Origin: Paraprevotella clara YIT 11840
GTDB lineage: Bacteria > Bacteroidota > Bacteroidia > Bacteroidales > Bacteroidaceae
Length of the DNA: 64,000 bases
Direction: 5' to 3'
Assembly: GCF_000233955.1 (NCBI RefSeq)
Contig: NZ_JH376591.1
Location: forward strand, 186,001 to 250,000
The notes under the pieces are model-generated. The model did no database searches. It saw nothing but the letters and a program-made list of their open reading frames with translations, and had not been told where the DNA came from. Numbering within the stretch: the first letter of the stretch is position 1; the number at the start of each line of letters is the position of its first letter. The translations under genes and the position numbers were made by a program. Shown here one piece after another: positions 29,785 to 44,160 of this stretch.

Positions 29785-29810
29785 ATTAATAAGCATTTGA
29801 TAAAGATTGT

Positions 29811-29848
29811 CAGGCCGCGTTCGTTGAGAACGCGGCCTGATGTCTTTT
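29811..29848 (+). terminator. Terminator of the V-ATPase operon
   Basis: CAGGCCGCGTTC (29811-29822) and GAACGCGGCCTG (29828-29839) form a perfect 12-bp GC-rich stem with a five-base loop. A short TCTTTT follows. It lies 27 bases after subunit K. Confidence 0.75.
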
Positions 29849-30111
29849 AGAACACTTCGAAAGCGGCGATACGGTTCCGGAGCCATGCTCGGGACGTAAC
29901 GCTTGTCTGCTCTTGGATTCAAAACGTGTAAAACCAGATAGAATAGAAGGTGGAGGAAGTCAATTCAGCCACCTGCGGCAAACGAAAAATCAATCTCTTG
30001 AGATTGATTTTTCGTTTGCCGCAGATTGATTTTCGTTTTGGCGCACAATTTTTCCCTATTCTCAACTCGTTGTATACGAGTTGTTTATAAATCCCTTTTT
30101 CTGTCCTCCAT
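29849..30111. other. Convergent intergenic region with palindrome
   Basis: This region between the V-ATPase terminator and the end of the protease operon holds no gene that I can support. Its main content is a near-identical inverted pair at 29973-30024, followed by a degenerate third copy (TTTTCGTTTTGGCGC near 30030-30044). Confidence 0.6.
29973..30024. repeat. Perfect 25-bp palindrome (interspersed repeat family)
   Basis: Arms at 29973-29997 and 30000-30024 are perfectly complementary over 25 bases with a two-base centre. The outer part reads TTTTTCGTTTGCCGCAG at 30008-30024. A related sequence (16 of 17 bases) recurs at 47136-47152, in another 3'-end region, so this is probably a member of a repeat family. 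Confidence 0.85.
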
Positions 30112-30480
30112 TTACCGGATTGAATCGGTTTGGAAAATGGCCGGCATGTCCGGCTCGGTATGTTCATAGTCGTAGGGCGAGGGGGCTATGCCTCCGTCTC
30201 CGGGTCCCGAGGTACCGCTGTTGGTACGTATGCGCCCGTCGGCGATGGCGATGTCCCAGTCCGTGCGTGCAACGTAGGCCTGTTGGGCGAGGGTGTCGGT
30301 CACGGCACAGGTGCCTACCACGGTATGCGTCACCATCGAAAAGTAAGTCCATTGGCCCTTTACGTTGGGGATGACGGCCATGCGGTCTGCCGCAGGGCCG
30401 CCGGTGGCGAGGGGGTGCTCGGCGGAACAGGCTGCCGCGAGAAGGGAGAGGCACGCCAGGCGTGCGAGTTGTTTTTTCAT
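30112..30480 (-). CDS. Short HmuY-like lipoprotein (N-terminal half only)
   Basis: A lipobox (LLAAAC18) leads a 122-residue protein. It contains GQWTYFSM (42-49), TDWDIAIADGRIRTNSGTSG (73-92) and GDGG (94-97). In HmuY-family hemophores, YFSF, then WD-A---Y-[IV]-[TR]N-G-SG-G-GG is the conserved first half of the fold. It stops where the second half of HmuY (about 200 residues in total) would begin. A C-terminal HmuY-like segment is found at the end of the upstream protease instead. It is the last gene of the operon. Whether it binds haem is unknown: the P. gingivalis haem-binding histidines lie outside what is present here. Confidence 0.5.
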   Translation of the reverse strand: MKKQLARLACLSLLAAACSAEHPLATGGPAADRMAVIPNVKGQWTYFSMVTHTVVGTCAVTDTLAQQAYVARTDWDIAIADGRIRTNSGTSGPGDGGIAPSPYDYEHTEPDMPAIFQTDSIR

Positions 30481-30507
30481 TCGTTCTGTCTTTTTAAGTT
30501 ATTCCGG

Positions 30508-31980
30508 TTATTCCGTTGTTCGGTAGCGCAGGGTGATGGTCTGGCTGCCGGTGTCGGGGTTGGCGAAGCGTATCTTGGCCTGCCGGCCTTCGGCCGTGCG
30601 CAGGAGGAAGGTACGGTCGGTCACGTTGCCTGCCTCGTCGGTGTAACGAAAGGCCGAGGCGGAGACGGGAGCGTCTTCTGCGGCTCGGATGCTGAAAGGA
30701 TTGCTGCCGTCGCGCAGCTCCACTGGTAGAGTGCCACGGTAGGGGTATTCCACGGGCTGCGCCCCACGGTAGTCCACGATGGAGAGGGCCGTGACGCGCC
30801 CCGTGCCCTTCACCTTACCCCTGAAACCACGCAGGATATTGAGGTAGAATGTTTCGCCGCCGCGCCCTTCTTCCGTCATGTATTCGGTCAGGTCCAGGGC
30901 TATTTCGATATTTCCGGGCATGTATTGCCCCTGCATGGGGTAGTCTCCCCCTTGGTTGTAGAAAGCCCGGCAGGTGTGGTAGCCGATGATGCCCCGTTCG
31001 TCTACGTCGCTTTCCGTGGCCAGACCGAAAGAGAGGTCGTTGCGTGAAGAGAAGTCGAGCGCGAGGCGGAAGACTACGAGGGGGCGGTGGATGCGCACGC
31101 GGATGGCTTCCACCGTGCTGCCCAGTTGCTGTTCGGGCACGCGGGTATCACGGAAAAAGTCGTAGGGGAGATAGAAGCGTCCGCGGTCGTGGCTATGGGT
31201 GCCCCAGGAGTTGACCACGATGAAGGCTCCCGTGTGCGGTGTCCCCTGTGCGTCGGTGTAGACGACCGTGTCGTCGTATCCGGCTATGGTGAGGGCGTGT
31301 GCCCCGTCCGTGGCAAGGCCTTTGAGCAAGGAGCGGTAGCCGGTGAGCGAGGGACCCTGGTAGTCGTCGTCGATTTCCCATCCGCGGCTCATGGCCGAGA
31401 AGGTGAGTACACCGCCCACCGCGCTGCCGTCGCCGGCATCGTAGAGCCAGCGTTTCATCAGGGGGATACTGTCGGCAAACGTCAGCACCTCCTGCGTGCG
31501 GTATTGCAGGGCCTTGTAGTATTTGTCATATCCCGTGGCCCATTTGAATTGGTAGGTGCCGGAGATGCCGTAGTCCTGTTCGGTCATGATGCCGTAACGC
31601 TCAGACAGGTAGAGGCCCTGGTCTACAAAGTCGCCCTGGTCCTGTCCGTCATTGAGCAGGTTCCACGAAAACTGATAGCTGAAGCGATGGTCGGCAGAAG
31701 CATGTGCGTCGCGGTCGAGCAGGCGGTTGATTTCGTAAGTGAACATGTAACCTATGCCGGAAGCCTGGGCACAGGAACCGCCCATCTGGTCCAATATGGG
31801 CGGAAAGAATTTCCGTGTGGAATTGTCCACCGCAGGCGGTAACTGTACTTCTGCCCGGCTTTGCAGGCAGAAAGGTGTGCGCGGCAGGTGCATGTCGCTT
31901 CCGTCGGGGACTTGCGCCCATGCGCCTTGGGCGCATAGGTGCAAGGTTATGTATAAAAGAGGTATGAGTTTACTTTTCAT
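30508..31980 (-). CDS. Papain-like (C1) cysteine peptidase with HmuY-like C-terminus
   Basis: Signal peptide (ends WAQ23). Catalytic features of the C1 papain family: Gln65 and Cys70 in LDQMGGSCAQ, His228 in GAHALTIAGYD, Asn257 in VVNSWG. From about 270 on, a beta-rich region of 220 residues has no assigned function. Its end, DRTFLLRTAEGRQAKIRF (455-472) then TITLRYRTTE (481-490), resembles the last strands of HmuY-family proteins. The start codon overlaps the end of the previous gene by 11 bases, and the next gene (HmuY N-half) follows after 27 bases. Probable periplasmic or surface protease that feeds the TonB receptor of the same operon. Confidence 0.85.
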   Translation of the reverse strand: MKSKLIPLLYITLHLCAQGAWAQVPDGSDMHLPRTPFCLQSRAEVQLPPAVDNSTRKFFPPILDQMGGSCAQASGIGYMFTYEINRLLDRDAHASADHRFSYQFSWNLLNDGQDQGDFVDQGLYLSERYGIMTEQDYGISGTYQFKWATGYDKYYKALQYRTQEVLTFADSIPLMKRWLYDAGDGSAVGGVLTFSAMSRGWEIDDDYQGPSLTGYRSLLKGLATDGAHALTIAGYDDTVVYTDAQGTPHTGAFIVVNSWGTHSHDRGRFYLPYDFFRDTRVPEQQLGSTVEAIRVRIHRPLVVFRLALDFSSRNDLSFGLATESDVDERGIIGYHTCRAFYNQGGDYPMQGQYMPGNIEIALDLTEYMTEEGRGGETFYLNILRGFRGKVKGTGRVTALSIVDYRGAQPVEYPYRGTLPVELRDGSNPFSIRAAEDAPVSASAFRYTDEAGNVTDRTFLLRTAEGRQAKIRFANPDTGSQTITLRYRTTE

Positions 31981-34144
31981 GGATGCGGCGGTAGGTTTTC
32001 AGGGCTTCCTGTCGGACGGTATCGGGGAGCGATGCGTCTTCACTCATTTTCAAGGCTGTCGCCGCGATGTCGGCGGCATGGCAGGAAACGGTGTGCCATC
32101 CTAAGGCTTCGAGCAGCAAGATTTGAGTGTTCCCGTCTCCGCAGTCCTGCAGGTAAACCAACAACTCCGGAACTTTGTGGTGCGGCAAGGTGTTGCGCAG
32201 GGCACGGATGGTGAAGGTCCGGTCTTTTTCTGAGGCTTCGCCCTTTACCACCTTGTCGATGTCGGTGGTCAGACGGTCGGCACTGTGGGCTATGGTATTT
32301 CTGATTTTACCGCGGAGGTTGTTCTTGTCGAGGTATTGTACGGATGGCGCATCGAACTGCCGGTCGAATTCGGCGAGCAGGTCTTCTTTGGGGAAGCAGG
32401 CGAGAGCCGTCATGACATTAAAGTTGCAACGGTCGCTGGTATTATTGGCGATAGACAGCCGGATGAGGGCCGGAATAAGACGCCGGTCGCCGTTTTTGGC
32501 GATGAAGCGTATCGCTTGGCGCTGTACCAGTTCATAGGCATCCTGCGAGGCTTCCGTCACGGCTGTAATGAAATGGTCGTCGGGGGTGGCGGAGAGGGCC
32601 ATCAGCGCTTCTAAGCGGACTACGCCGTAAGGAGATTCACGATAGATGCGGAGCAGGTCGGCCGACGAGAGCGCACCGGCTCTTCTCAACTGTTCGATGG
32701 CCAATGACTGCACGTCCGGCAAAGGGCTTTTCAACAGCTTTTTCCAAGAAGAAACCTTATTTTGCAACAGCAGGCCGTCCACATCCACACTTCCGGGTAC
32801 GGGGGCAAAGCGGAACGTGGGATCGCCGATGACATGGGACTCCAGGAGATTGGAAAAGCGTACTACGTCTCCTACGCAACCGCCTTGGGCTGTCAGTCCG
32901 ATGAAACGATCGTACCATTTGTCTTGCAAGGCATTGACCGTATTGGCTATGACAGCCACCGTAGAGCCTGGCTGGAAGATGTATTCGTTCGCTATGCAGT
33001 CATCCTGGTGGAAGGAGCCGCAGAAGCAGGCATCAATCACTACGACGGGTACATTGGGACGATAGCCGAATATTTTGAAATCCTCCAGATGCAGGTCTTC
33101 GTTAGCTACAAGAGTAGAGTCGGCAATGCGCAGGCTGTCGGCCAGCGGGTTGTCGCCGAGCCAGGTGGACGGCAGGTCGAAACGTTTCTCCAGTACCACG
33201 CGCAGGGAGTCGTAATTACGTCCTCTTTCGCGGGCTTCCTCCACGTGCATCCTCACGTTGCGGATGATAAACTCCTTAGCCTCGCGCACCGTACGGATGG
33301 GAGCCGTACCGTTCAGGTATTCCGTGTCGAAATAGCCGTGGTGGTGCAGGATGGCCAGGTCCAGGTCGGTACGCATCATTTCGTTCATCAGATGTTCTTT
33401 TACCGGATTGTGGTCGGTGTGGTCCATATAGCTGATGCGGTTGGTGCGTCCGGCCAATGAGGGAAAATGTTCGAAATAAGCCGCTTTCTCGTCCATGCGG
33501 GCGGTTTTGGATTCGGAGATATACCCGTGGCCGCTGAAGAAAAACAGTTGTCCGAGCGCCCGTTGTCTTTCTTTCTCCCTTACAGCCTTGGTCAGATATT
33601 CCCTGAGCTTCTGGTAGCGGGAGCTTTCGGGCGTGTCGGTAGGCCGGATACGTCCGCTGTACAAGTCCGGATAGATTTTCTGGCTGCTTTGGGGAGTGAG
33701 GGAATAATAAAAATAGGGCTTGTCTTCATCCTTACCCTGAAACTTGAATTGTAGGCCGAAGTCATCGTAGAACCGGTCTGAAGGGACAGACGACTCGCGG
33801 CGGTCATTCTTTTGGTTCATCTTAAAGGCACTGGTCAGGTGCTGTGCGTCGCGAACCATGACGATGGGGATGTCGCCCACGAAAACAGTCCCTACGATAG
33901 GTTCGGATTTCTGTTCGTGCAAATGTTTCAGGGTGGCACGGATGGAGTCGGGCACCTGCCACCGGTCGATGACCGTGTATACTTTAAGGCCATGCAGGCG
34001 CTCTATGGCGCGGGCATAAGCGTCTACTTCAGGCCGTGCTTCCTGATAACTCACCGAGTCGATGACGATGGCAAATCCGTTACGTGCCGCAATTTGAACC
34101 GTAAAAGCCAGACAAGTAAGGACGGATAATAATAGTTTTTTCAT
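31970..34144 (-). CDS. Clan CD (gingipain C25-like) peptidase with HEAT-like repeats, copy 1
   Basis: The signal peptide ends near AARN. Residues 22-400 resemble the caspase/gingipain fold: GFAIVIDSVSY, then a fold-defining strand VGTVFVGDIPIVM, PDLYSGRIRPTD, and the catalytic His in AILHHHG (His269) and Cys in VVVIDAC (Cys373). The remaining 300 residues show helical repeats like HEAT motifs (SLAIEQLRRAGAL, VRLEALMALSATPDDHF). It has no T9SS tail and no lipobox, so it is likely periplasmic. The adjacent upstream gene (34167) is a paralogue sharing all motifs. Specificity is not predictable from the sequence. Confidence 0.8.
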   Translation of the reverse strand: MKKLLLSVLTCLAFTVQIAARNGFAIVIDSVSYQEARPEVDAYARAIERLHGLKVYTVIDRWQVPDSIRATLKHLHEQKSEPIVGTVFVGDIPIVMVRDAQHLTSAFKMNQKNDRRESSVPSDRFYDDFGLQFKFQGKDEDKPYFYYSLTPQSSQKIYPDLYSGRIRPTDTPESSRYQKLREYLTKAVREKERQRALGQLFFFSGHGYISESKTARMDEKAAYFEHFPSLAGRTNRISYMDHTDHNPVKEHLMNEMMRTDLDLAILHHHGYFDTEYLNGTAPIRTVREAKEFIIRNVRMHVEEARERGRNYDSLRVVLEKRFDLPSTWLGDNPLADSLRIADSTLVANEDLHLEDFKIFGYRPNVPVVVIDACFCGSFHQDDCIANEYIFQPGSTVAVIANTVNALQDKWYDRFIGLTAQGGCVGDVVRFSNLLESHVIGDPTFRFAPVPGSVDVDGLLLQNKVSSWKKLLKSPLPDVQSLAIEQLRRAGALSSADLLRIYRESPYGVVRLEALMALSATPDDHFITAVTEASQDAYELVQRQAIRFIAKNGDRRLIPALIRLSIANNTSDRCNFNVMTALACFPKEDLLAEFDRQFDAPSVQYLDKNNLRGKIRNTIAHSADRLTTDIDKVVKGEASEKDRTFTIRALRNTLPHHKVPELLVYLQDCGDGNTQILLLEALGWHTVSCHAADIAATALKMSEDASLPDTVRQEALKTYRRIHEK

Positions 34145-34166
34145 TATGTTTCTTGTTCTATGAGGG

Positions 34167-36350
34167 TTATTTCAATCGTTTGTAGGTTTTCAGAGCTTCT
34201 TGGCGCACTTGTTCCGAGTGGGAAGTGTCTTTCATGAGTTTTTCCACTACGGGGAGTACCTGTGCCGAAGTATAGGCCTGGCGGTGCCATCCCAAAGCCT
34301 CGAGCAACGGTAACAGCAGTTCGTCGTCTTTTAGCGTGGCGGTATAACCGGCTACTTGGGGCAAGAGGTAAGGCGGGCAATAGATTCGCATGAAATTGAT
34401 TTGTGTCAAAGCACGTTTGTGCGACATTTCTCCTTTACACAGCTTTTCAATCTCTTCGTCCCATCTTCCGGCATAGTTTTCGGCGTTTTTCAATACGCCT
34501 TTGGCATAGGTTTCGGGTTGGACCACGTAGGGAGCCACTTGCCGGAGTCTGTCCTCTACGGCGGGGAGCAGATTCTGTCGGGAAAAGAACTGTGCGCCTT
34601 GCAGGGCATTGAATGCCACTCGCGCCGATGTATTTACGTCGCAGAGTTTCCCGGCCAACGTATTTGCCAGACGAGGATCACCGTTTTTGATAAGCGCATT
34701 GACTGCAAAACGCTGCAGCAATTCGAAATTGTCGTATGCTGCGTTTTCAATGGCAGAGACAAAGTCGTCGGAATGCCGTTGTTGGAGGAGCAAGAACGCT
34801 TCCAGGCGGACACTTTCGTAGGGTGACGTTTTCAGATATTCCAACAGGTGTTGGTCGGAGAGTTCCTTGCTTTCTTGCAACTGGTGCAAGGCCAATGCCT
34901 GTATATCCGGATGGGGACTGTGGCGGAGCAACCTTTTCCAATCTTTCTGCTTGCCGGAACTGATGAGGTCATTAAGAGAGTGATCTTGTTCCGGAAAGAA
35001 TGCAAAAGTCGGGTCGCCTACCACGTGCATTTCCAAATCGGGATTGAGTTGGTTCAGGAATCCTATCATAACACCCTGTTCCAGCAGACCGGCAAAGCGG
35101 TCCGGCCACTTGTCCTGAAGTACGTTGACAGAACCTCCCAGTCCGCAGATTGTCTTTCCCGGTTGGAATATGTATTCGTTGGCAATGCAGTTCTCACGAT
35201 GCCAGGAACCGTTGTAACAGGCGTCCCAGAAGGCTACTCTGCAATTCGGCCGGAAAGCGTAGCGGGCGAAATCAGACAACACAATGTTGGTCATGGCGCT
35301 TTCCAAAGAGTCGTCCTTTGCCAAAGCGCTGTCGTCCAGCTCTGCCATCCAAGCATCGGGCAACTGGTCGCGGCTTTGTAAATTTCGTCTGATACTGTCC
35401 GTATCGTATCCGAAATGCCAGGCACGGTTCAGGGAGGAGCGGTAGCAATGCAGCAAGTACTCACGTGCTTCTTCCGCAGTTGAGGGTTTGGGCCAAGCAC
35501 TGAGGTACTGTGTGTCGTAATCGCCATGATGGTGCATGAAAGCCACGCTCAGATCCGGCGACATGAGCGCGTTCATCAATTTTTGTTTGATGAGTTTCTC
35601 GTCGGAATAGTCCATGTAGCGGTAGGCATTGGGACGGTGTGCGAGCGAAGGGAAGTGGGCATGCATGGAAGCCATTTCGTCAATATGGGCCGTTTTGGAT
35701 TCTGACAGACTGCCGCTGCCTGTATAGACAAAGACGGACATCATACGTTCGGGATGCAATTTTGCTTCCGTTGCTTTCTGCAAGTAAGCTTTGAGCTTGG
35801 TATAACGTGAACCGGGTGTATCGCCGTCGGTGGGACGGATGCGTCCGGAAAACAAATCGGGGTGTACTTGCTGACTTCCCCGTGCCGATAATGAATAGTA
35901 ATAATATGGAGCTGTACTGTCGCGTTTCAGAAAGTCGAATTGCAACGAGAAGTCGTCATAATAACGGTCTGACGGGACAGAGGATTCTTGCCAAGGCATT
36001 TTTTGGCTCATCTTGAACGCACTGCAAAGATGCTGTGCGTCGCGAATCATGGGAATGGGGATGTCACCGATAAAAACGGCGCCTATGATGGCTTCGTGAG
36101 GCTGGGCGTGCAGACCTTTGAGAGTAGCACGGATAGAATCCGGTACCCCCCACCGGTCGACTACAGTATAGACTTTGAAATGTTGTTTGGATTCCAATGC
36201 CCGGATGTATTCAGCCAGTTCGTGTTGAGCCTGTTGGTAGCTGATGGAGTCGATGACGACGGCAAAGCCTTTTCGTTCGGCGTGCAGTGTAGGGCAAAAG
36301 AAGAGCACGCACCACAGGCTGATAATAGAGTAGATGTTTCTTTTTCTCAT
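34167..36350 (-). CDS. Clan CD (gingipain C25-like) peptidase with HEAT-like repeats, copy 2
   Basis: A 727-residue paralogue of the downstream gene: FAVVIDSISYQQAQHELAEY against FAIVIDSVSYQEARPEVDAY, with IRDAQHL, SSVPSDR and PDL[FY]SGRIRPTD shared. Catalytic residues: His275 in FMHHHG and Cys378 in AFWDAC. HEAT-like repeats follow from about residue 450. The signal peptide ends at LHAE. It starts 11 bases after the stop of the DUF6850 gene and lies 22 bases before copy 1. The divergence between copies suggests different targets, or a heterodimer. Confidence 0.8.
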   Translation of the reverse strand: MRKRNIYSIISLWCVLFFCPTLHAERKGFAVVIDSISYQQAQHELAEYIRALESKQHFKVYTVVDRWGVPDSIRATLKGLHAQPHEAIIGAVFIGDIPIPMIRDAQHLCSAFKMSQKMPWQESSVPSDRYYDDFSLQFDFLKRDSTAPYYYYSLSARGSQQVHPDLFSGRIRPTDGDTPGSRYTKLKAYLQKATEAKLHPERMMSVFVYTGSGSLSESKTAHIDEMASMHAHFPSLAHRPNAYRYMDYSDEKLIKQKLMNALMSPDLSVAFMHHHGDYDTQYLSAWPKPSTAEEAREYLLHCYRSSLNRAWHFGYDTDSIRRNLQSRDQLPDAWMAELDDSALAKDDSLESAMTNIVLSDFARYAFRPNCRVAFWDACYNGSWHRENCIANEYIFQPGKTICGLGGSVNVLQDKWPDRFAGLLEQGVMIGFLNQLNPDLEMHVVGDPTFAFFPEQDHSLNDLISSGKQKDWKRLLRHSPHPDIQALALHQLQESKELSDQHLLEYLKTSPYESVRLEAFLLLQQRHSDDFVSAIENAAYDNFELLQRFAVNALIKNGDPRLANTLAGKLCDVNTSARVAFNALQGAQFFSRQNLLPAVEDRLRQVAPYVVQPETYAKGVLKNAENYAGRWDEEIEKLCKGEMSHKRALTQINFMRIYCPPYLLPQVAGYTATLKDDELLLPLLEALGWHRQAYTSAQVLPVVEKLMKDTSHSEQVRQEALKTYKRLK

Positions 36351-36361
36351 AAAACTAATCC

Positions 36362-37957
36362 TTAAAATTGCAAATATACTCCTGCGGTAGAAAGCGAACG
36401 GTTCGTACCGTCGAAAGTATCATCATATTCATTCTTGTCCGTATAGAACTTGAAATCCGTGGATATATAAATGCCTAAAGTTATTTTCTTAGGAAGGGGG
36501 ATAGCTACTTGTGCCAAAGCCCCTATCAAGGCGTGTCCGGAAGTGGCATACTCGAATTGGGGACGGGTGTATACGGCAGAAATGTCTTCATCGGCCGTTC
36601 TGGTGTTTCCATTGCCGTAAGTGCGGCTCAACGGTATACGGTAACCGCCATGGACAGACAAGTCCAAACCTGCGGATTTGATGTTCAGGAACTTGCCTGC
36701 AGACAGTTGTGTGGTTAGTAAGGTAGATGTTTGTTTGGCTTTTCCGGTGGACAACTGGTGATTGTAGGCAGATGATGTGAATGCGGCCAAAGCGTCTACG
36801 AAGAAATCCTGCTTGTCATCTTTCAATCGTTCGAAGCGATATTCCAGTCCGGCGGTCATTCGCTGGTCGTCCTGAATTTTATATTTGCTGAGCGTCTCGT
36901 AATATACCAGATTTCCGTGTTCGGTGTCTGTCATCATTTTCTGGTCCCGCCATATACCTTTTCCGGAATGGTAGGATGCCGTCAATACCAGATGGTGACG
37001 TGTCTGACGGTGAGGGGAGAGAAGGAAACGGTTCTGAAGCATCCATTCATCCGAAGTGTAGTCTCCTCCGTAAAATTTATAGGAAGAACCTCCGTCTGTA
37101 GCTTCTTCCGAAACATGCGTATAACGGACTTCCGTGAAATTCCCGTATTTTTTGTGTTCCGGTTCCCATACAAGTTGCAAGGCACCGGTATAATTCAGTC
37201 CCTTATATGCGCGTTGGTAGCCCGACACGTCGTTCGACGAGATTCGGTAATAGTCCCCCATACCTTTCATCAGGAAATAGCGGTGGCTGTTGAGTGGATT
37301 GACCAACGTATAGGCGATGTCCGAATTATAAAAGGAAATGCCGGCCGTAGCACCCAGTGCCCATTGGGAACTCAACCGATGCTCTGCTCCTACGTAAATA
37401 GGCAGGACGGTGGTATTGGTTTTGGGGCGAGGGTCTGTCTGGTCGGACAGGCTTCCTAATGTCAATCCGATAGAGATTCCCCCTTTCCAGGATTCATTCC
37501 ATGCATAAGAGGCCGTCATGCCCATTTCAAAAGATTCCGTGGTAGCGTCGCTTGCCACTGAATCGCAAAGCACAAATGGGTTATCGGGGTTGAGAAAAAG
37601 GGTGGAGTTCCACTTCTTGTCTTTCTCTTGTAAATTGCGGTAACTGATGAAGCCCGACACGTCTACCTTGCCCAGATTTTTAATTCCCCCCATATAAAAC
37701 TTGAGGTGATTCGATAGTCTGCCTTCATCCACCGGTCGGTAACTTCCACGTCCAATCGTATAGTCCAGTTTGGCCACACCCTTGTTTTTGTAGGAATTGA
37801 AAGAGATGCGCGAGGGGTTCAGGCTGGTATACCGGATATTGTCCGACACATTAGCCGAACTTTCATTCCATTCGCTTCGGCACTCTTCTAAAGATTGCGC
37901 ATGCATTTGGACAAGAGAACCCAAACTCAACGACAGTAACAGGACGTAACGTTTCAT
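36362..37957 (-). CDS. DUF6850-family outer membrane beta-barrel protein
   Basis: A signal peptide (ending MHAQ) precedes a 510-residue protein made of alternating hydrophobic strands (GGIKNLGKVDVSGFISYRNL, HLVLTASYHSGKGIW) and ending with the aromatic-capped STAGVYLQF expected for outer membrane barrels. The beginning (SECRSEWNESSANVSDNIRY) resembles the DUF6850 group, which I recall as a companion of DUF4876 genes. Probable accessory outer membrane protein of the uptake system. It follows DUF4876 after a hairpin and precedes the peptidase pair. Confidence 0.65.
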   Translation of the reverse strand: MKRYVLLLSLSLGSLVQMHAQSLEECRSEWNESSANVSDNIRYTSLNPSRISFNSYKNKGVAKLDYTIGRGSYRPVDEGRLSNHLKFYMGGIKNLGKVDVSGFISYRNLQEKDKKWNSTLFLNPDNPFVLCDSVASDATTESFEMGMTASYAWNESWKGGISIGLTLGSLSDQTDPRPKTNTTVLPIYVGAEHRLSSQWALGATAGISFYNSDIAYTLVNPLNSHRYFLMKGMGDYYRISSNDVSGYQRAYKGLNYTGALQLVWEPEHKKYGNFTEVRYTHVSEEATDGGSSYKFYGGDYTSDEWMLQNRFLLSPHRQTRHHLVLTASYHSGKGIWRDQKMMTDTEHGNLVYYETLSKYKIQDDQRMTAGLEYRFERLKDDKQDFFVDALAAFTSSAYNHQLSTGKAKQTSTLLTTQLSAGKFLNIKSAGLDLSVHGGYRIPLSRTYGNGNTRTADEDISAVYTRPQFEYATSGHALIGALAQVAIPLPKKITLGIYISTDFKFYTDKNEYDDTFDGTNRSLSTAGVYLQF

Positions 37958-37974
37958 TTTCTTTTCGGATTAAA

Positions 37975-38003
37975 ACAGGGATGGGATTCGCTCCCGTCCC
38001 TGT
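37975..38003 (-). terminator. Intra-operon hairpin, partial terminator or processing site
   Basis: ACAGGGATGGGA (37975-37986) pairs with TCCCGTCCCTGT (37992-38003) over a five-base loop, with one wobble. In the direction of transcription the hairpin is followed by TTTTAATCC. It lies 12 bases after the DUF4876 stop, between the receptor genes and the barrel/protease genes. Confidence 0.6.
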
Positions 38004-38015
38004 CAGTTTTCATAA

Positions 38016-39233
38016 TTATTCATCAACACTTGTAGGAGTCTCACCCGGAGTCAACGGCTGGTCGCGCAGGAAATCGGCGGCAGAATTGTTGGTGTCCTGA
38101 TAGTAAGGCCGTCCGTTTTCGATTTTAGTCACTTTCCGGCGGATACATTTTGCCGAATACATCGGGTTACCTTTCACACCGGTGGCATCATCTTGCGGCA
38201 AGAATGTGGGGTAGTGGCTCTCGGTTTCCGGATCGTATATGTCTACTGCGTCAAGCACATATTTGCTGGGGATGACTAGATAGCTCATAGAAGTGGAAGA
38301 GGTTCCCGGTTCGTACATTACGCTCGACTCCAATGCCGCATAAGCTTCCGGTGTCATGCCTTCCGGTAACTTGGCCAGTACGTAAGACCGTCCCGATACG
38401 CCCAGACCGAAGGCAAACATATACTGGTTGTTGTAGAAGATTGTTTTCAAGTTGGGAGCAGCGTAATCTACGTCATTGGCATTATAGTCCAGATAAATTT
38501 CCCAATCGGCATTGCTCAAGTCTGGACAGCTTGCGTAGTCTGCCGCTTGCGACGCATCCTCGCCGTATGCCAGTTTGTGGTTCGTGGCATCGTTGGCAAT
38601 CAGGACGCTCTCACCCGGCTGGAGGGGATAGTCGTGCCCGTTTCCGGGGAATGCCACTACGGAACCTTGTCCGCAGGCGTAGAGGTCTTCGTAACCGTTG
38701 GCCTGCCATGCATTCGCTGTTTGTTGGTTGCCGGTAGGTGCGGTCAGGATGAGATTGTCCAGATACTGTACTTCGTCTGAGTTGTTGACGATTTCGAAAT
38801 AACTCTCGTGCATGTAATATTGTTTACTGCCAGAGTTATGAATCGTTTTGAAAATCAAGGAAGACTGCATGACTTTCTGTAGATTGACCGTCACCGGGGT
38901 ATTGGCATAAAGGTCCACTGACGTGCTGCCGCTGAGGTAGGCCTTGGCTTCATCGGCTACCTTGCCGGAGACCGTCACTTTGTACTGTCCCTGCGGAAGT
39001 TCTATCTCTTTCGGGTTAGCGTCCAAGGACAACGTGTCGTTTTTGGCAGTCGAACCCAAAATGAGCTTAAGCTCTTCCACGTTAGACGCTTCCACGTCCG
39101 ACGGAAGGGAATAGCTGACCGTCAGTTTGTAACTCTTCATACCCTCGTCGTTATCTTCGCTACAAGACACGAAGGCAAGGCCGCATACGGCCATCATGGC
39201 TATGACGCCATTTTTAAGAAACTTCTTTCTCAT
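38016..39233 (-). CDS. DUF4876-family lipoprotein
   Basis: Lipoprotein signal (LAFVSC). An N-terminal carbohydrate-binding-like beta domain (about 35-120; YKLTVSYSLPSDVEASNVEE) is followed by the DUF4876 hallmark YFEIVNNSDEVQYLDNLIL, then AFPGNGHDYPLQPGESVLIA. The C-terminal part includes FLPQDDATGVKGNPMYSAK. Probably surface-exposed and partner of the TonB receptor, whose gene ends 38 bases before it. It is often seen directly after a TonB receptor. The ligand is unknown. Confidence 0.8.
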   Translation of the reverse strand: MRKKFLKNGVIAMMAVCGLAFVSCSEDNDEGMKSYKLTVSYSLPSDVEASNVEELKLILGSTAKNDTLSLDANPKEIELPQGQYKVTVSGKVADEAKAYLSGSTSVDLYANTPVTVNLQKVMQSSLIFKTIHNSGSKQYYMHESYFEIVNNSDEVQYLDNLILTAPTGNQQTANAWQANGYEDLYACGQGSVVAFPGNGHDYPLQPGESVLIANDATNHKLAYGEDASQAADYASCPDLSNADWEIYLDYNANDVDYAAPNLKTIFYNNQYMFAFGLGVSGRSYVLAKLPEGMTPEAYAALESSVMYEPGTSSTSMSYLVIPSKYVLDAVDIYDPETESHYPTFLPQDDATGVKGNPMYSAKCIRRKVTKIENGRPYYQDTNNSAADFLRDQPLTPGETPTSVDE

Positions 39234-39271
39234 GTTTTCTGTTTGTTAAATGTTTATATATAGGTGTGTTC

Positions 39272-42103
39272 TCAAAGTTTCAGCTTCAGTTCCGCTCCGA
39301 AGTACATGTCCGGGTATAGTTGCGTTTTGGCCAGGCTGTGCGGATTGGTGTGCCACTTCTTGGTATTGGTGAAGTTGTTGGCGATGACGGACAGTTCGGC
39401 CACACGGCCTATTTCTTTGGTAAAACGGAAGCTCAGCAACGCCCAAGGCTTGATGACATCCTTTTCGTACAAGTAAGGTTGTGTGCGGTACATGATGCGC
39501 GACTTGTCCGCGTCGTCGGCATCGGCCTGGCTCCACGCCGTGTAGTGGCCCTGTTTGTCGTAGTATCCCACGGGGTCGACTACCAAGTAATCCTTGTCTT
39601 CGTAAGACTTGAGATAGTAGCGGCTGTTTCCGTTCTCGTCTTCGTAGATGGTTTGGGTGCTTTCGTACCATACGACCTGTACCGATGTGGTGAATACCAT
39701 TTTGATGGCCGGGATGTGGGTGATGAGCCGGAACGTGGAATTGAACCGGTCTCGCAGGTTCCCTCCGCCCGAAGGGAGCACGCCTACGTAGTCGAACGAA
39801 GAATTGATATAGTTCAGGGGCATGTTCTCATTTTTGCGCTTGATATGGAACCATGCCCCGCTGATGTTCAGCGAGGTGTGCAAGGGCTTGATTTCACCGA
39901 AGTCCAGTCCGTACTCGATGCCGTGCTTGTGCGTGGTCGTGCTGTTGGCCGCCCGGCTCCAGGTGTACATTTCGGTGGTCTTCGTCCGCAGGGCTGTATG
40001 CTCCGTCCCATCCACGCGGTAAGTCACGTCGCCGCTTGCGGCATCGAATACGGGGTCGGTTGCCGTGGCCGGCACGGTGTACTTGTCATAGTTTTGCCAG
40101 ATGAGTTGCGACGTAAAGCCCAGTTCGTGCCGGTGGAATTCATGGAAGAAGGTGGCAAAACCCTTTATCCTGTTGATGCGGAAAGACAGGCCCGCTTCCC
40201 ATTTCGTGGAGCGTGCAGGACGCAGGTCGGGGTTAGCCGTATTCTTTACTACGTCCGTCGTGATCAATCCCAAACGGTCCTTTGTTTCCGTCCCGTATTT
40301 AGACAGGCTGGCATTGTCGAAATAGGCATAGTCGGGATAGAGGTACATCAGTGTGGGCATCTTGTTGGAGATGCCGAAACCTCCGGTCAGGGCCAGCAGG
40401 TCGAAAACAGGATTGTTCCGGCTGTCCAACAGGTTTAGCGTGGCGTTGACACGAGGCTCGGCTACGAGGAAGTGGCTGATACCTCCGCTTTGTTTCCGGT
40501 CTACAAACATGTTGCTGACGCGTACTCCGGCTTCCAGCATAAGCCCCATGGAGCCCAACCCCTTACGCAGACGGCTGCTGGCAAAACCCGACAAGGTGCT
40601 TTGGGCAGGTATGTCCTTGTAGCTCCGTGGACGGAGAGTCTGTGCCCCTTGAGCTTGCGGTGGGTTATTTTCGTCGTAAGTGAATCCTTCACCCCGGTTG
40701 GCATCGTAAGTGTATTCTGCGCCGAGTTTCAGGTTGGCATAGTCGTTTTCCGAGATTTGCAAGTATTTGTTTGCCACAGCTTGGGCATACAGGTTGACGG
40801 GGATGCCCTCGATGCGGTAAGCCGATGTGTACCCCACATTACGTATCTGAGCTACGTGTACACCCGGTTCGCGGGCTGTCGTGACCAGTCCGTCGGGATT
40901 GTTCACCCAATTGTCGTGGCTGTCTACCGTGCGTGACATTTGAGCTGAGAGATTATAGTCCAGCGAAGAGAGAAAGCCTCCGGCAGGCTTGTAACGCCCA
41001 CTCACGGAAAGCCGTCCGCCCACGTTGGTGTTTTTGTAATGTATTTGTTGTTCCTCGAACTGGGGATCGTCTTTACGGTTGTTCACGTTAGAGTAAAAGG
41101 CTCCTTTTACGTTAAGGGAAAGCGGCCCGAATTGGGCGGAGTATCCGGCTGAGGCCGTAATGCGGTCGTATCCCATGTAGTGCTTGCGCGTATCGGCCCA
41201 CGACTGCGACCAGTCTACGCTGAAGTTTGCAGCTCCGCCCCTTTTGAGGTTGAATCCCTTGCCGGCGAAGACTTGTTTGGAGTTTGGGTCCGTTTGGAAC
41301 TTGGCTTCCCAAGGCGTGTGTCCCGCCTTGGTTTTGACTACCACTACGCCCGACGTCAGATTACCGTATTCCACAGAGGGGATACCGCGTATCACCTCCA
41401 TTGATTCTATATTTCCGGCACTGACGGTGCGTAGGTCCACGCCTCTTCCGGCTGTCGTCTGTTCGCTCATCCCGTCGCTTTGCATGCCGGAATTGGCGCC
41501 GAATTTGCTGGGCGATACCACTTGCAGGTTCGATTCGTTGCTTAAAGGGGTGCCGTCTACTACCACCAAGGTGCCTAAGGCATTGTTGTCGTCATCTTCT
41601 ATTTCGCGTATGTGTGCCTGCCCCAGATTGTTCAAATTCGGATTTTCAATCAGGTTGCCCGGTACGAGCTGCAACAAATCGTTCAGGCTTTTGGGTTGTA
41701 CGTGGCGTATGGCGTCCTCTCCGATAAGCGATTTAGAACCCATTTGTTCTTGCCGTGCCGTCACTGTTACATTCTTAAGGTTGAGGCTCAGCTCTTTGAG
41801 TGTGACATCCAGTCTTGTTTTTGAGGATTGGATATGCACCGTGCCCATCACCGTTTCATAACCTACAAAAGAAACACGGTACTGGTAGGTACCTTCTTTC
41901 AGTCGGGTCAGCTTATAGTGTCCGTTCCGGTCGGTATGGGAACCTATGACGTTGTTTAGGCTTACCGTAGCTAACTCTATAGGTTTTCCCTTTATGTCGC
42001 GCACGGTTCCTTCCAATATATTTGAAGCATTTTGAGCAAAAGACGGGAGAGAGAAGAAAAAGAGTAGGATGATGCCGAGAATGGGATTTTTTCCTTGTAA
42101 CAT
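39272..42103 (-). CDS. TonB-dependent outer membrane receptor
   Basis: Signal peptide (ending LPSFAQ). Residues 27-105 form a carboxypeptidase-D-like domain (ILEGTVRDIKGKPIELATVS). The plug follows from VTVTARQEQ, containing IRHVQPKSLNDLLQLVPGNL and SVEYGNLTSGVVVVKTKAG. The barrel ends in MYFGAELKLKL with an alternating C-terminal strand. No STN domain and no SusD is present, so it is a receptor of the siderophore/haem/vitamin type rather than SusC. It is the first gene of the seven-gene operon and has its own promoter with an upstream dyad. The operon content suggests haem, iron or peptide uptake. Confidence 0.9.
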   Translation of the reverse strand: MLQGKNPILGIILLFFFSLPSFAQNASNILEGTVRDIKGKPIELATVSLNNVIGSHTDRNGHYKLTRLKEGTYQYRVSFVGYETVMGTVHIQSSKTRLDVTLKELSLNLKNVTVTARQEQMGSKSLIGEDAIRHVQPKSLNDLLQLVPGNLIENPNLNNLGQAHIREIEDDDNNALGTLVVVDGTPLSNESNLQVVSPSKFGANSGMQSDGMSEQTTAGRGVDLRTVSAGNIESMEVIRGIPSVEYGNLTSGVVVVKTKAGHTPWEAKFQTDPNSKQVFAGKGFNLKRGGAANFSVDWSQSWADTRKHYMGYDRITASAGYSAQFGPLSLNVKGAFYSNVNNRKDDPQFEEQQIHYKNTNVGGRLSVSGRYKPAGGFLSSLDYNLSAQMSRTVDSHDNWVNNPDGLVTTAREPGVHVAQIRNVGYTSAYRIEGIPVNLYAQAVANKYLQISENDYANLKLGAEYTYDANRGEGFTYDENNPPQAQGAQTLRPRSYKDIPAQSTLSGFASSRLRKGLGSMGLMLEAGVRVSNMFVDRKQSGGISHFLVAEPRVNATLNLLDSRNNPVFDLLALTGGFGISNKMPTLMYLYPDYAYFDNASLSKYGTETKDRLGLITTDVVKNTANPDLRPARSTKWEAGLSFRINRIKGFATFFHEFHRHELGFTSQLIWQNYDKYTVPATATDPVFDAASGDVTYRVDGTEHTALRTKTTEMYTWSRAANSTTTHKHGIEYGLDFGEIKPLHTSLNISGAWFHIKRKNENMPLNYINSSFDYVGVLPSGGGNLRDRFNSTFRLITHIPAIKMVFTTSVQVVWYESTQTIYEDENGNSRYYLKSYEDKDYLVVDPVGYYDKQGHYTAWSQADADDADKSRIMYRTQPYLYEKDVIKPWALLSFRFTKEIGRVAELSVIANNFTNTKKWHTNPHSLAKTQLYPDMYFGAELKLKL

Positions 42104-42124: not shown

Positions 42125-42156
42125 CAAAATTATCCCATTCGAGAATGTTCGTCAAT
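42125..42156 (-). promoter_or_regulatory. Promoter of the receptor/protease operon
   Basis: On the minus strand TAATTTTG (42132-42125) fits TAnnTTTG, with ATTG (42156-42153) 20 bases upstream. The receptor start codon lies 22 bases downstream. Confidence 0.55.
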
Positions 42157-42275: not shown

Positions 42276-43286
42276 TTAAGGCCGAAGGAAATCTTCAGCC
42301 AAAGACACGGCATGTCGGAAAGCCGTATCCTGTCCCGGTACGGTGATGAACAGATGGACAGTGCCTGGCAATACTTCACGGTGCGCTGTCACGCCGAGGC
42401 GTTTCACGTGGTCGGTGAATTCTTTCCCTTGGTCGCATAAGATGTCGCGTTCGGCAGCCACGAGAAGCAGTCGGGGCAGACGTGAGAGCAGGCTGTCCGG
42501 GCAAAGGGAGGGAGATATGAAAGGATGTTTGGCCTGACCGCGCGTGTAGGCTTGATTGAAGGCCTCCATCAACGAACCGTCTAATGCCGCTCCCTTTTGA
42601 TAGGTTTTCCAAGAAGGCGATGCATCGTTCCAAGCAGATACCACCGGGTAGAAAAGCAGGAGAGAGCGAAGAGGCGGCATCCCGTTTTGCAGGTTATGCA
42701 GACAGACGGACAAAGCTAAGTTGCCTCCCGAACTGTCTCCCCCGACGGAAATGAGTTCCGGTGAGCTGCCCCATTCCAAAGCTTTTTTGCGAGCCAATTT
42801 TACGGCACGTATACAGTCCTCCAGTCCGTCCGGAAACGGATGTTCGGGAGCCAGACGATAGTCTACTGCCAACACGATGACATTGCCTGTGGCGGCTAAT
42901 GTCTGGCAAAACCGGGCGCAACTGTTAATGCTTCCGAATGTCCATCCTCCTCCATGCAGGTAAATGAGAAGAGGCAGAGGACTTTGATTCTTTTTTACGG
43001 GAGTGTACAGGCGCAGAGCCGGAGTGATATAGATGGCATTCACGTCGGTTGGTAAAGGAGTAGGAATATTACGTGATGCCCGGATACGAGTGAGGGGTAC
43101 GGTGTCGCCTTGTATGGCTTGCAGTATGGCTTGGGTCTGTTGTTCCTGTAACCCGTCGGGCATGGCCGACAAGAACCGGTCGGCTTCGCGACGGAACGCA
43201 TCACGGTCTTTTTCTATGGAGCTTTGGCCGTAAACAGTAGGTAAAGTACCTAACAGACTAAAGCATATCAGAAGTATAGTTCTCAT
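42276..43286 (-). CDS. Secreted alpha/beta hydrolase (HSL-type esterase)
   Basis: Signal peptide (ending VYGQ). The 336-residue protein shows the hormone-sensitive-lipase pattern: HGGGWTFGS (oxyanion hole), GDSSGGNLALS with the nucleophile serine, an acidic residue near AAERDILCDQG, and His near VHLF. HSL-type enzymes hydrolyse small esters or acyl and acetyl groups. The gene precedes the TonB operon on the same strand, but the 172-base gap with its own promoter and dyad separates them. It lies behind the tRNA pair and their terminator. Confidence 0.85.
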   Translation of the reverse strand: MRTILLICFSLLGTLPTVYGQSSIEKDRDAFRREADRFLSAMPDGLQEQQTQAILQAIQGDTVPLTRIRASRNIPTPLPTDVNAIYITPALRLYTPVKKNQSPLPLLIYLHGGGWTFGSINSCARFCQTLAATGNVIVLAVDYRLAPEHPFPDGLEDCIRAVKLARKKALEWGSSPELISVGGDSSGGNLALSVCLHNLQNGMPPLRSLLLFYPVVSAWNDASPSWKTYQKGAALDGSLMEAFNQAYTRGQAKHPFISPSLCPDSLLSRLPRLLLVAAERDILCDQGKEFTDHVKRLGVTAHREVLPGTVHLFITVPGQDTAFRHAVSLAEDFLRP

Positions 43287-43561: not shown

Positions 43562-43593
43562 CAAAGATAGCGTATTTCGGGGTTTACACCAAA
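43562..43593 (-). promoter_or_regulatory. Promoter of the tRNA pair
   Basis: On the minus strand TTTG (43593-43590) is spaced 20 bases from TATCTTTG (43569-43562), a perfect match to the Bacteroidetes consensus. The tRNA-Gly starts 23 bases downstream. Confidence 0.75.
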
Positions 43594-43608: not shown

Positions 43609-44160
43609 TTATCGGTTGTTGATGACCATCGTGTTACCGGAATACGTGATGCGATAACGGAACAGGCTTACCCCTTCCTCACCGATACTGATTTGTCCCT
43701 GATTGTTCAGGTTGTAAGTTCGGCCGCAGGATACGCATGCGGCATAACCGCCTTCTTTCAGTTGCAGGGCGCGGGATATATTGTAGGCGGAATAACAGTT
43801 GGGGCAGGCCAAATCGTAGCAGACGGGCAGGGAAGTCGTGCTGCCCAGTTCGGGGATGTTGGGCAGGCCGGCAATAAAACCGGCGATACCCATTTGAATG
43901 GAAGAGTTGCCGGCAATGGCAGTGGCATTGACCGGAGTGGTGTGTCCGCTTTCGTCTGTGAACAGGAAACGGTCGCGGTCGCGGCGGATGGTCGTATAGA
44001 CTCCCAAACTGTTCAAGGCCGCGTTGAGTTGCGGTACAGTATTGACGTTTTTGTACACGAAATAGGCCGGATAGTTGGAGTAGGTGTTTTGTACGTCCTC
44101 CTTGCAGGCCGTGAGGCATAGCAATGCCGTGAATATAAAAAAACTCCGTATTCTTTTCAT
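43609..44160 (-). CDS. Lipoprotein with two CxxC pairs, Rieske-like arrangement
   Basis: Lipobox LLCLTAC19. The C-terminal third contains CYDLACPNC (Cys114, 119, 122) and CVSCGRTY (Cys142, 145) with about 20 residues between the pairs. Spacing and surrounding residues (AC--CG--Y----G) recall a Rieske cluster domain, but the two histidines are replaced by cysteine, so a zinc or a differently ligated site is likely. The function is unknown. The start codon lies in the loop of a hairpin shared with the terminator of argH. Confidence 0.6.
   Translation of the reverse strand: MKRIRSFFIFTALLCLTACKEDVQNTYSNYPAYFVYKNVNTVPQLNAALNSLGVYTTIRRDRDRFLFTDESGHTTPVNATAIAGNSSIQMGIAGFIAGLPNIPELGSTTSLPVCYDLACPNCYSAYNISRALQLKEGGYAACVSCGRTYNLNNQGQISIGEEGVSLFRYRITYSGNTMVINNR

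Follow-up and report, generated by a model that had tools for sequence, protein, structure and literature searches.

A candidate TonB-dependent import-and-digest operon with two kinds of cysteine peptidase and a divided HmuY homologue in Paraprevotella clara

The import of whole proteins for nutrition has, to our knowledge, been established for very few bacteria. In the Fus system, import through the TonB-dependent receptor FusA is followed by proteolysis in the periplasm by the protease FusC; clusters that set an M16 peptidase beside a TonB receptor are described from Proteobacteria (PMC6793856). Related gene sets of Bacteroidota appear in published lists of regulated genes: BT1933-39 (transposase, hypothetical proteins, HEAT-repeat protein, DUF4876, TonB receptor) is up 3.5–7.4 fold under iron depletion, and under iron limitation PG1019-22 of Porphyromonas gingivalis is up 21–214 fold and BT3625-33 of Bacteroides thetaiotaomicron 38–128 fold (PMC10434189); among the haemin-dependent genes tabulated for P. 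gingivalis, DUF4876 is found close to HmuY (PMC10470040), and a mutant transcriptome table lists both DUF4876 and HmuY (PMC10101095). Here we analyse a stretch of 64,000 nucleotides from Paraprevotella clara YIT 11840 (contig NZ_JH376591.1, positions 186,001 to 250,000; hereafter the window), in which seven minus-strand genes join a TonB receptor, DUF4876 and DUF6850 proteins, three predicted cysteine peptidases and a short HmuY-like lipoprotein. We read them as a TonB-dependent import-and-digest operon for an iron-bearing peptide or small protein, a proposal to which we give about an even chance of being right.

The seven open reading frames (ORFs) run from position 42103 down to 30112 with 0 internal stops; from the 5′ end they encode the TonB receptor, DUF4876, DUF6850, two copies of a C25-like peptidase (C25a and C25b), a papain-like (C1) peptidase and the HmuY-like protein, here called half-HmuY (Table 1). 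From the TonB gene downward the intergenic gaps are 38, 58, 11 and 22 bases, followed by an 11-base overlap of C25b with C1 and a last gap of 27 bases. A preliminary description of this DNA had claimed such a series, with gaps of at most 58 bases, one overlap and one shared promoter: every ORF lies where it had been placed, and a single promoter match of the Bacteroidota type precedes the TonB gene. It had also put the receptor, DUF4876 and the proteases into one unit, and this arrangement is not due to chance, because it is conserved in other genera. Judged by its sequence, the operon is real, intact and conserved; the promoter, the terminator and the single transcript are predicted from sequence matches.

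The neighbourhoods analysed are those of DUF6850 genes scoring 77 bits or more, of DUF4876 genes detected in a set of 61 genomes (the own genome and relatives) and of relatives of C25b. Rows removed before counting were L029 (same genome as L019), L036 (a DUF4876 fragment), L037 and L038 (parts of L039 and L040) and L157 (same contig as L021); the count of 71 loci excludes the window, for which the near-identical L019 stands in, and includes loci cut by contig ends. Of 295 genomes of the order, 57 have a DUF6850 match (47 above the cut-off), and 14 of the 61 have DUF4876. In 67 of the 71 loci the contiguous run leading up to DUF6850 contains both the TonB and the DUF4876 gene, in 62 of them in exactly this order. 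The four exceptions are L020 and L093, which are cut by contig edges, L055, where DUF4876 is preceded by a wider gap, and L085, which has neither of the two; in L089 the two genes are swapped. An extra short DUF4876-like lipoprotein (~130 amino acids) lies behind TonB in L025, L026, L027, L031, L033, L054 and L071, with one or two longer DUF4876 genes further on. Among solved structures, the DUF4876 protein is related to the "putative lipoprotein" 4q1z; the Protein Data Bank (PDB) holds no sequence relative of the receptor at E ≤ 1e-6 and none of DUF6850 at E ≤ 0.1. DUF6850 is probably an outer-membrane barrel, to judge from its C-terminal F.

What follows this core is variable. Scored over the contiguous run after DUF6850, which ends at a strand change or a gap of more than 200 bases, and with classes named by Pfam from cluster representatives only, 13 of the 71 loci carry C25-HEAT genes, 10 carry M16 and/or S46 peptidases (7 M16, 2 both, 1 S46), 23 carry an ATP-binding cassette (ABC) transporter with DUF4857, often together with PepSY genes, and 25 carry none of these; L069 was scored in the last group although a C25 gene lies some genes further on. 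No locus (0/71) combines two of the three classes. The chance of zero overlap is 0.003 for C25 and ABC, 0.014 for ABC and M16/S46 and only 0.11 for C25 and M16/S46, shared ancestry not being removed from these values. Mapped on a quick tree built from the three core proteins (66 rows), the label for C25 changes 4 times against a mean of 12.1 in shuffles (0/500 as low), that for ABC 13 times (1/500) and that for M16/S46 7 times (21/500); the "none" label is not clustered (17 changes, 116/500). An M16 peptidase, ~935 amino acids long where intact, occurs in the downstream run of nine loci (L025, L026, L033, L034, L059, L073, L074, L081 and the fragmentary L027), directly behind the core or the extra DUF4876 genes in seven and further down in L073 and L081. 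On this sequence evidence, the peptidase classes interchange behind a common core. By its annotation, BT3625-33 has the same core with an ABC/PepSY module. Directly behind DUF6850, a met-zincin peptidase (DUF4953) and a protein with a type IX secretion system (T9SS) tail are seen in L067 (10728-12482, minus strand) and L073 (10874-12568, minus strand); they are possible further exchangeable parts.

The C25-HEAT family is confined to 11 of the 295 genomes, own included, and 10/10 of the others also hold DUF6850. Inside the fetched DUF6850 neighbourhoods lie 15 of 16 copies; the remaining one sits at the edge of a contig, and its genome has a second copy within such a neighbourhood. In an alignment of 25 C25-like rows (copies fetched later are not among them), the motifs H-[HE]-H-G and D-A-C-[FY]-x-G are present in 25/25, both window copies included. 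Gene neighbourhood ties the family to the TonB-DUF4876-DUF6850 module, and the alignment shows its predicted catalytic residues intact. C25b scores 25.3 bits against Pfam PF01364 (Peptidase_C25; cut-off 23) and is 98% identical to its counterpart in P. xylaniphila YIT 11841; C25a, which matches HEAT only, is 44% identical to C25b and has the same catalytic motifs. An AlphaFold2 model of C25b has a predicted local distance difference test (pLDDT) score of 67.8, and its top Foldseek match among 350,542 chains is gingipain R (RgpB 4ief), a weak match (E 4.5e-4; template modelling [TM] scores 0.28/0.45). The preliminary description had made its proposal depend on the co-occurrence of the proteases with receptor and DUF4876 in related genomes, which was found, and on the survival of catalytic residues, which are kept in the aligned relatives (25/25 for the C25-like peptidases, 25/25 to 26/26 for C1). 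Genus g205 (L169, L170, L172-L174, L176) has 4–5 tandem C25-HEAT genes, many of them for lipoproteins, upstream of C1 and half-HmuY.

In Bacteroidota, an acidic stretch after the lipoprotein cysteine is a signal for export to the surface. Read by lipobox pattern rather than by a trained predictor, 74 of 94 DUF4876 proteins, 21 of 26 half-HmuYs, 27 of 74 C25 peptidases and none of 26 C1 peptidases are lipoproteins, and the six residues after the lipobox cysteine hold on average 2.65 acidic residues in DUF4876, 2.19 in half-HmuY and 0.52 in the C25 lipoproteins. These signals suggest that DUF4876, predicted to be surface-exposed, and half-HmuY lie outside the outer membrane and the C25 proteases inside it; capture outside and proteolysis inside is their plainest reading, and would put digestion in the periplasm. 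No T9SS C-terminal sorting domain was matched in the seven proteins by Pfam (E ≤ 1) or NCBIfam (E ≤ 0.1). With no such tail found and with signal statistics that favour a site inside the outer membrane, the comparison with gingipains drawn in the preliminary description is weak.

In the import-and-digest reading, DUF4876 would help to catch the ligand outside the cell, and the TonB receptor, with DUF6850 as an accessory outer-membrane protein, would bring it into the periplasm, where the two C25-HEAT peptidases and the papain-like peptidase would cut it. The cargo would most likely be a peptide or small protein that bears iron and is taken up for that iron or for a cofactor, and the whole would work much as Fus does, except that cysteine peptidases from two clans do the work of the M16 peptidase; substrate, location, direction of import and use of iron in this operon are all things that we infer. 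Several observations count against this proposal. PqqU of Escherichia coli is an importer of pyrroloquinoline quinone (PMC12124388), so a TonB receptor near a protease is no proof of protein import; PqqU was formerly called YddB, and under that name had been taken for a protein importer (PMC6793856). None of the three module classes follows the core in 25 of the 71 loci, a transporter module replaces the peptidase class in 23, and the peptidase counts share ancestry. The iron data come from loci of other organisms, and BT1933-39 is equated with the C25 type on the strength of the label "HEAT repeat" in the published list. The signal statistics are not independent (25 of the 27 C25 lipoproteins come from genus g205), 47 of the 74 C25 sequences, the two of the window included, have no lipobox by pattern, and the acidic signal of the window's own half-HmuY is weak (SAEHPL).

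RagAB is thought to import oligopeptides as a nitrogen source, and this operon might likewise import and trim oligopeptides for nitrogen, with no special role for iron. The several unrelated peptidase families that occupy one place, and the 4–5 tandem C25 copies in one genus, would suit such broad digestion; strong induction of BT3625-33 by iron shortage, and of PG1019-22 as well, in the published lists speaks for iron, and we consider peptide nutrition unlikely.

A further alternative turns on the last two genes. The C1 protein is called no more than papain-like, because its score against Peptidase_C1 (PF00112) is below the cut-off (12.4 vs 20.7 bits); it has a solved relative in Lpg2622 (2.8e-6), and the active-site Gln, Cys, His and Asn are kept in 25/25, 25/25, 26/26 and 26/26 rows, one row being gapped at the first two. 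Its AlphaFold2 model (mean pLDDT 34.6, four sequences) was set aside. Orthologues of ~500 residues number 24, own excluded, among 399 genomes of the family (E ≤ 6e-78), with one more in another family (G095); distant relatives within large proteins occur in 68 of 295 genomes at 1e-10. A half-HmuY gene follows C1 on the same strand in 26/26 loci, window included, mostly overlapping it slightly or lying no more than 46 bases away; the ORF calls for L165 and L166 place its start well inside C1. C25 precedes C1 in 25 of the 26 loci (the contig ends there in L177), and TonB, DUF4876, DUF6850 and C25 are all upstream in 17; eight of the nine without the full upstream set end first, at the limit of the contig or of the fetched stretch, and L165 begins at a contig end, with DUF4876 not detected. 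The operon is patchy in Paraprevotella, since only 3 of 18 genomes (own, G014 and G015) have a C1 orthologue of the operon type. Insertion into an empty site was considered and set aside: the vacuolar-type ATPase (V-ATPase) genes are conserved in four operon-free Paraprevotella genomes (L181 short), but the genes beyond ntpK differ, and no clean empty site was found.

HmuY is divided between these two genes. Half-HmuY matches Pfam HmuY at 33.2 bits (cut-off 27) over positions 4–48 of 157 only; on a 212-position HmuY profile, positions ~1–124 are found in half-HmuY, ~167–210 in the C1 tail and ~125–166 in neither, the best relative covering 10–124 with its last gene and 169–210 with its C1 tail. 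The tail is linked to HmuY through its family; taken alone, the C1 tail of the window is not significant against the profile (−0.3 bits). Searched with a C1-tail profile, ~3,000 ORFs gave significant matches outside the family to full HmuYs only, 4 of the 6, and a profile-profile comparison, one against one, gives 96% probability and E 3.7e-9. In the printed alignment of 3h8t, the absent stretch contains both His134 and His166, which we take to be the haem ligands of P. gingivalis HmuY; other HmuYs may use others. Where the conserved motif NSGxSG was matched as a string, the halves end 30–44 residues after it; His134, counted on the 3h8t alignment, lies 44 residues behind it, so that the longest halves nearly reach this position, and none ends in histidine. 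A frameshift was rejected as the cause of the short HmuY: the 26 halves stop near the same point (120–143 amino acids, except L165 and L166 with early start calls), and no remnant behind the stop was found by eye. Because the stretch with both ligand histidines is in neither gene, binding of haem by half-HmuY and the C1 tail in the manner of HmuY is unlikely.

Of the haem or iron role first proposed for these genes, the iron link persists, through the published regulation of related loci, and capture of haem by HmuY does not, the 122-residue protein being a first half whose last strands are on C1. Haem piracy in one operon, with gingipain-like proteases outside the cell and an HmuY-like haemophore passing haem to the receptor, is in our estimate distinctly unlikely. 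It would account for the gingipain R match of C25b, the sound HmuY homology of the last gene, the surface-exposed look of half-HmuY in most relatives, the iron response of related loci and the place of DUF4876 near HmuY in the haemin-dependent table (PMC10470040), but it is at odds with the missing ~125–166 segment (if His134 and His166 are the ligands), with proteases in which no T9SS tail was found, with C25 lipoproteins that have no acidic signal, and with a genome in which no other HmuY match was found at E ≤ 0.001. A working like that of Fus is preferred to the gingipain/HmuY model because nine core loci have an M16 peptidase in the run. The proposal that the proteases mature or regulate parts of the importer itself, for example by clipping DUF4876 or the receptor and leaving cargo untouched, would suit the tight link, in gene position and in phylogeny, between C25-HEAT and the receptor module, but is very unlikely given that C25 is absent from the downstream run of 58 of the 71 core loci and that the same place takes M16, S46 or transporters, a better fit to cargo processing.

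As for the function of the divided protein, the two halves may pair in trans; what speaks against this is that C1 looks soluble and that half-HmuY, in the majority of relatives, looks exposed at the surface. A more elaborate and rather doubtful scheme would see a dismantled haemophore with a new job, its N-terminal half surviving as a lipoprotein, the final strands joined to a papain-like protease and the haem-binding middle lost. The halves would pair in trans, and half-HmuY would dock, anchor or switch on the protease at a TonB receptor that imports proteins; the operon would then be a Bacteroidota protein-import system for iron with C25-like, C1, M16 and S46 as exchangeable peptidases. The split is in any case a warning against reading every HmuY match as haem uptake, and offers a natural example of a binding domain shared out between an enzyme and a partner lipoprotein.

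The promoter pattern upstream of the TonB gene occurs 5 times in the window, where shuffling predicts 0.81 (a count as high came up in 1 of 100 shuffles), and the adjoining esterase gene (42276-43286) has a separate match at 43562-43592. Further upstream, at 43609-44160 (minus strand), lies a gene for a small lipoprotein that has two CxxC pairs (CPNC, CVSC) and weakly matches zinc ribbons. Of the two inverted repeats 3′ of the last gene, only the 13- to 15-pair one is listed for the minus strand, and it is a possible common end of the operon and the V-ATPase genes; the region has 18 terminator-like sites where 15.4 are expected, which is no clear enrichment.

Table 1. Positions in the window of the operon genes and of nearby sequence elements.
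Feature	Coordinates	Strand	Remarks
TonB-dependent receptor, 943 amino acids	39272..42103	-	Pfam CarboxypepD_reg and Plug domains
DUF4876 lipoprotein, 405 amino acids	38016..39233	-	Pfam DUF4876 5e-52; lipobox Cys, then acidic SEDNDE
DUF6850 protein, 531 amino acids	36362..37957	-	Pfam DUF6850 4e-93
C25-like cysteine peptidase copy a (C25a)	34167..36350	-	Pfam HEAT; signal peptide without lipobox by pattern
C25-like cysteine peptidase copy b (C25b)	31970..34144	-	Pfam Peptidase_C25 and HEAT; predicted catalytic His269, Cys373
Papain-like (C1) peptidase, 490 amino acids	30508..31980	-	predicted Gln65/Cys70/His228/Asn257; no lipobox by pattern
C1 tail, ~residues 446-490	30511..30645	-	as a family, homologous to HmuY C-terminal strands, profile ~165-210
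Half-HmuY lipoprotein, 122 amino acids	30112..30480	-	HmuY profile positions 1 to ~124; without haem-ligand segment
Promoter match, Bacteroidota -33/-7 type (TTG-N20-TANNTTTG)	42125..42155	-	upstream of TonB gene; sequence pattern
20-pair inverted repeat	29975..30022	+ (as listed by scan)	between operon end and V-ATPase K gene; terminator only by guess
13- to 15-pair inverted repeat	29808..29842	both	terminator-like on both strands, by scan

If the import-and-digest reading is true, a TonB receptor with exchangeable peptidases extends nutritional protein import to Bacteroidota, and DUF4876 and DUF6850, two unexplained families, gain a testable role in iron supply. By the features compared, the operon is not a member of the Fus, HmuY or Hmu systems. 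The literature search found no description of this arrangement and none naming DUF6850, subscription literature lying largely outside it. The trypsin-degradation locus 00502-00509 of Paraprevotella clara is of the same genus and concerns the surface handling of a host protein; by its published annotation (00502 Omp28-related, T9SS-dependent), it is a different locus, set apart by description (PMC9477747). HmuY-type pieces and a TonB receptor recall the Hmu haem uptake operon, which differs in that no full HmuY or haem-ligand segment is present here and that CobN, ExbB and DUF2149 are not among the seven genes. With gingipain R (C25), the weak top Foldseek match of the C25b model, the C25-like peptidases share the His-Gly and Asp-Ala-Cys motifs; unlike it, they have a HEAT-repeat C-terminus, no T9SS tail that could be found and a predicted periplasmic site. 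BT1933-39, BT3625-33 and PG1019-22 have a TonB receptor and DUF4876 in common with this operon, BT1933-39 also a HEAT-repeat protein, and BT3625-33 has ABC, DUF4857 and PepSY genes as in the ABC-class loci; in the accessible part of the source these loci are listed as induced, without a mechanism, and no C1 or HmuY piece is named (PMC10434189). The likeness to Fus is one of gene arrangement, the receptor having no solved-chain sequence match at E ≤ 1e-6. The operon departs from Fus in its C25-HEAT and C1 cysteine peptidases, with no M16 peptidase among its genes by Pfam, and in DUF4876, DUF6850 and half-HmuY, for which we know of no Fus counterpart. It resembles Fus (PMC6793856) in joining a TonB receptor and a predicted periplasmic protease in one operon, in the iron-linked regulation of its relatives and in the M16 peptidase that lies in the downstream run of 9 of 71 related core loci.

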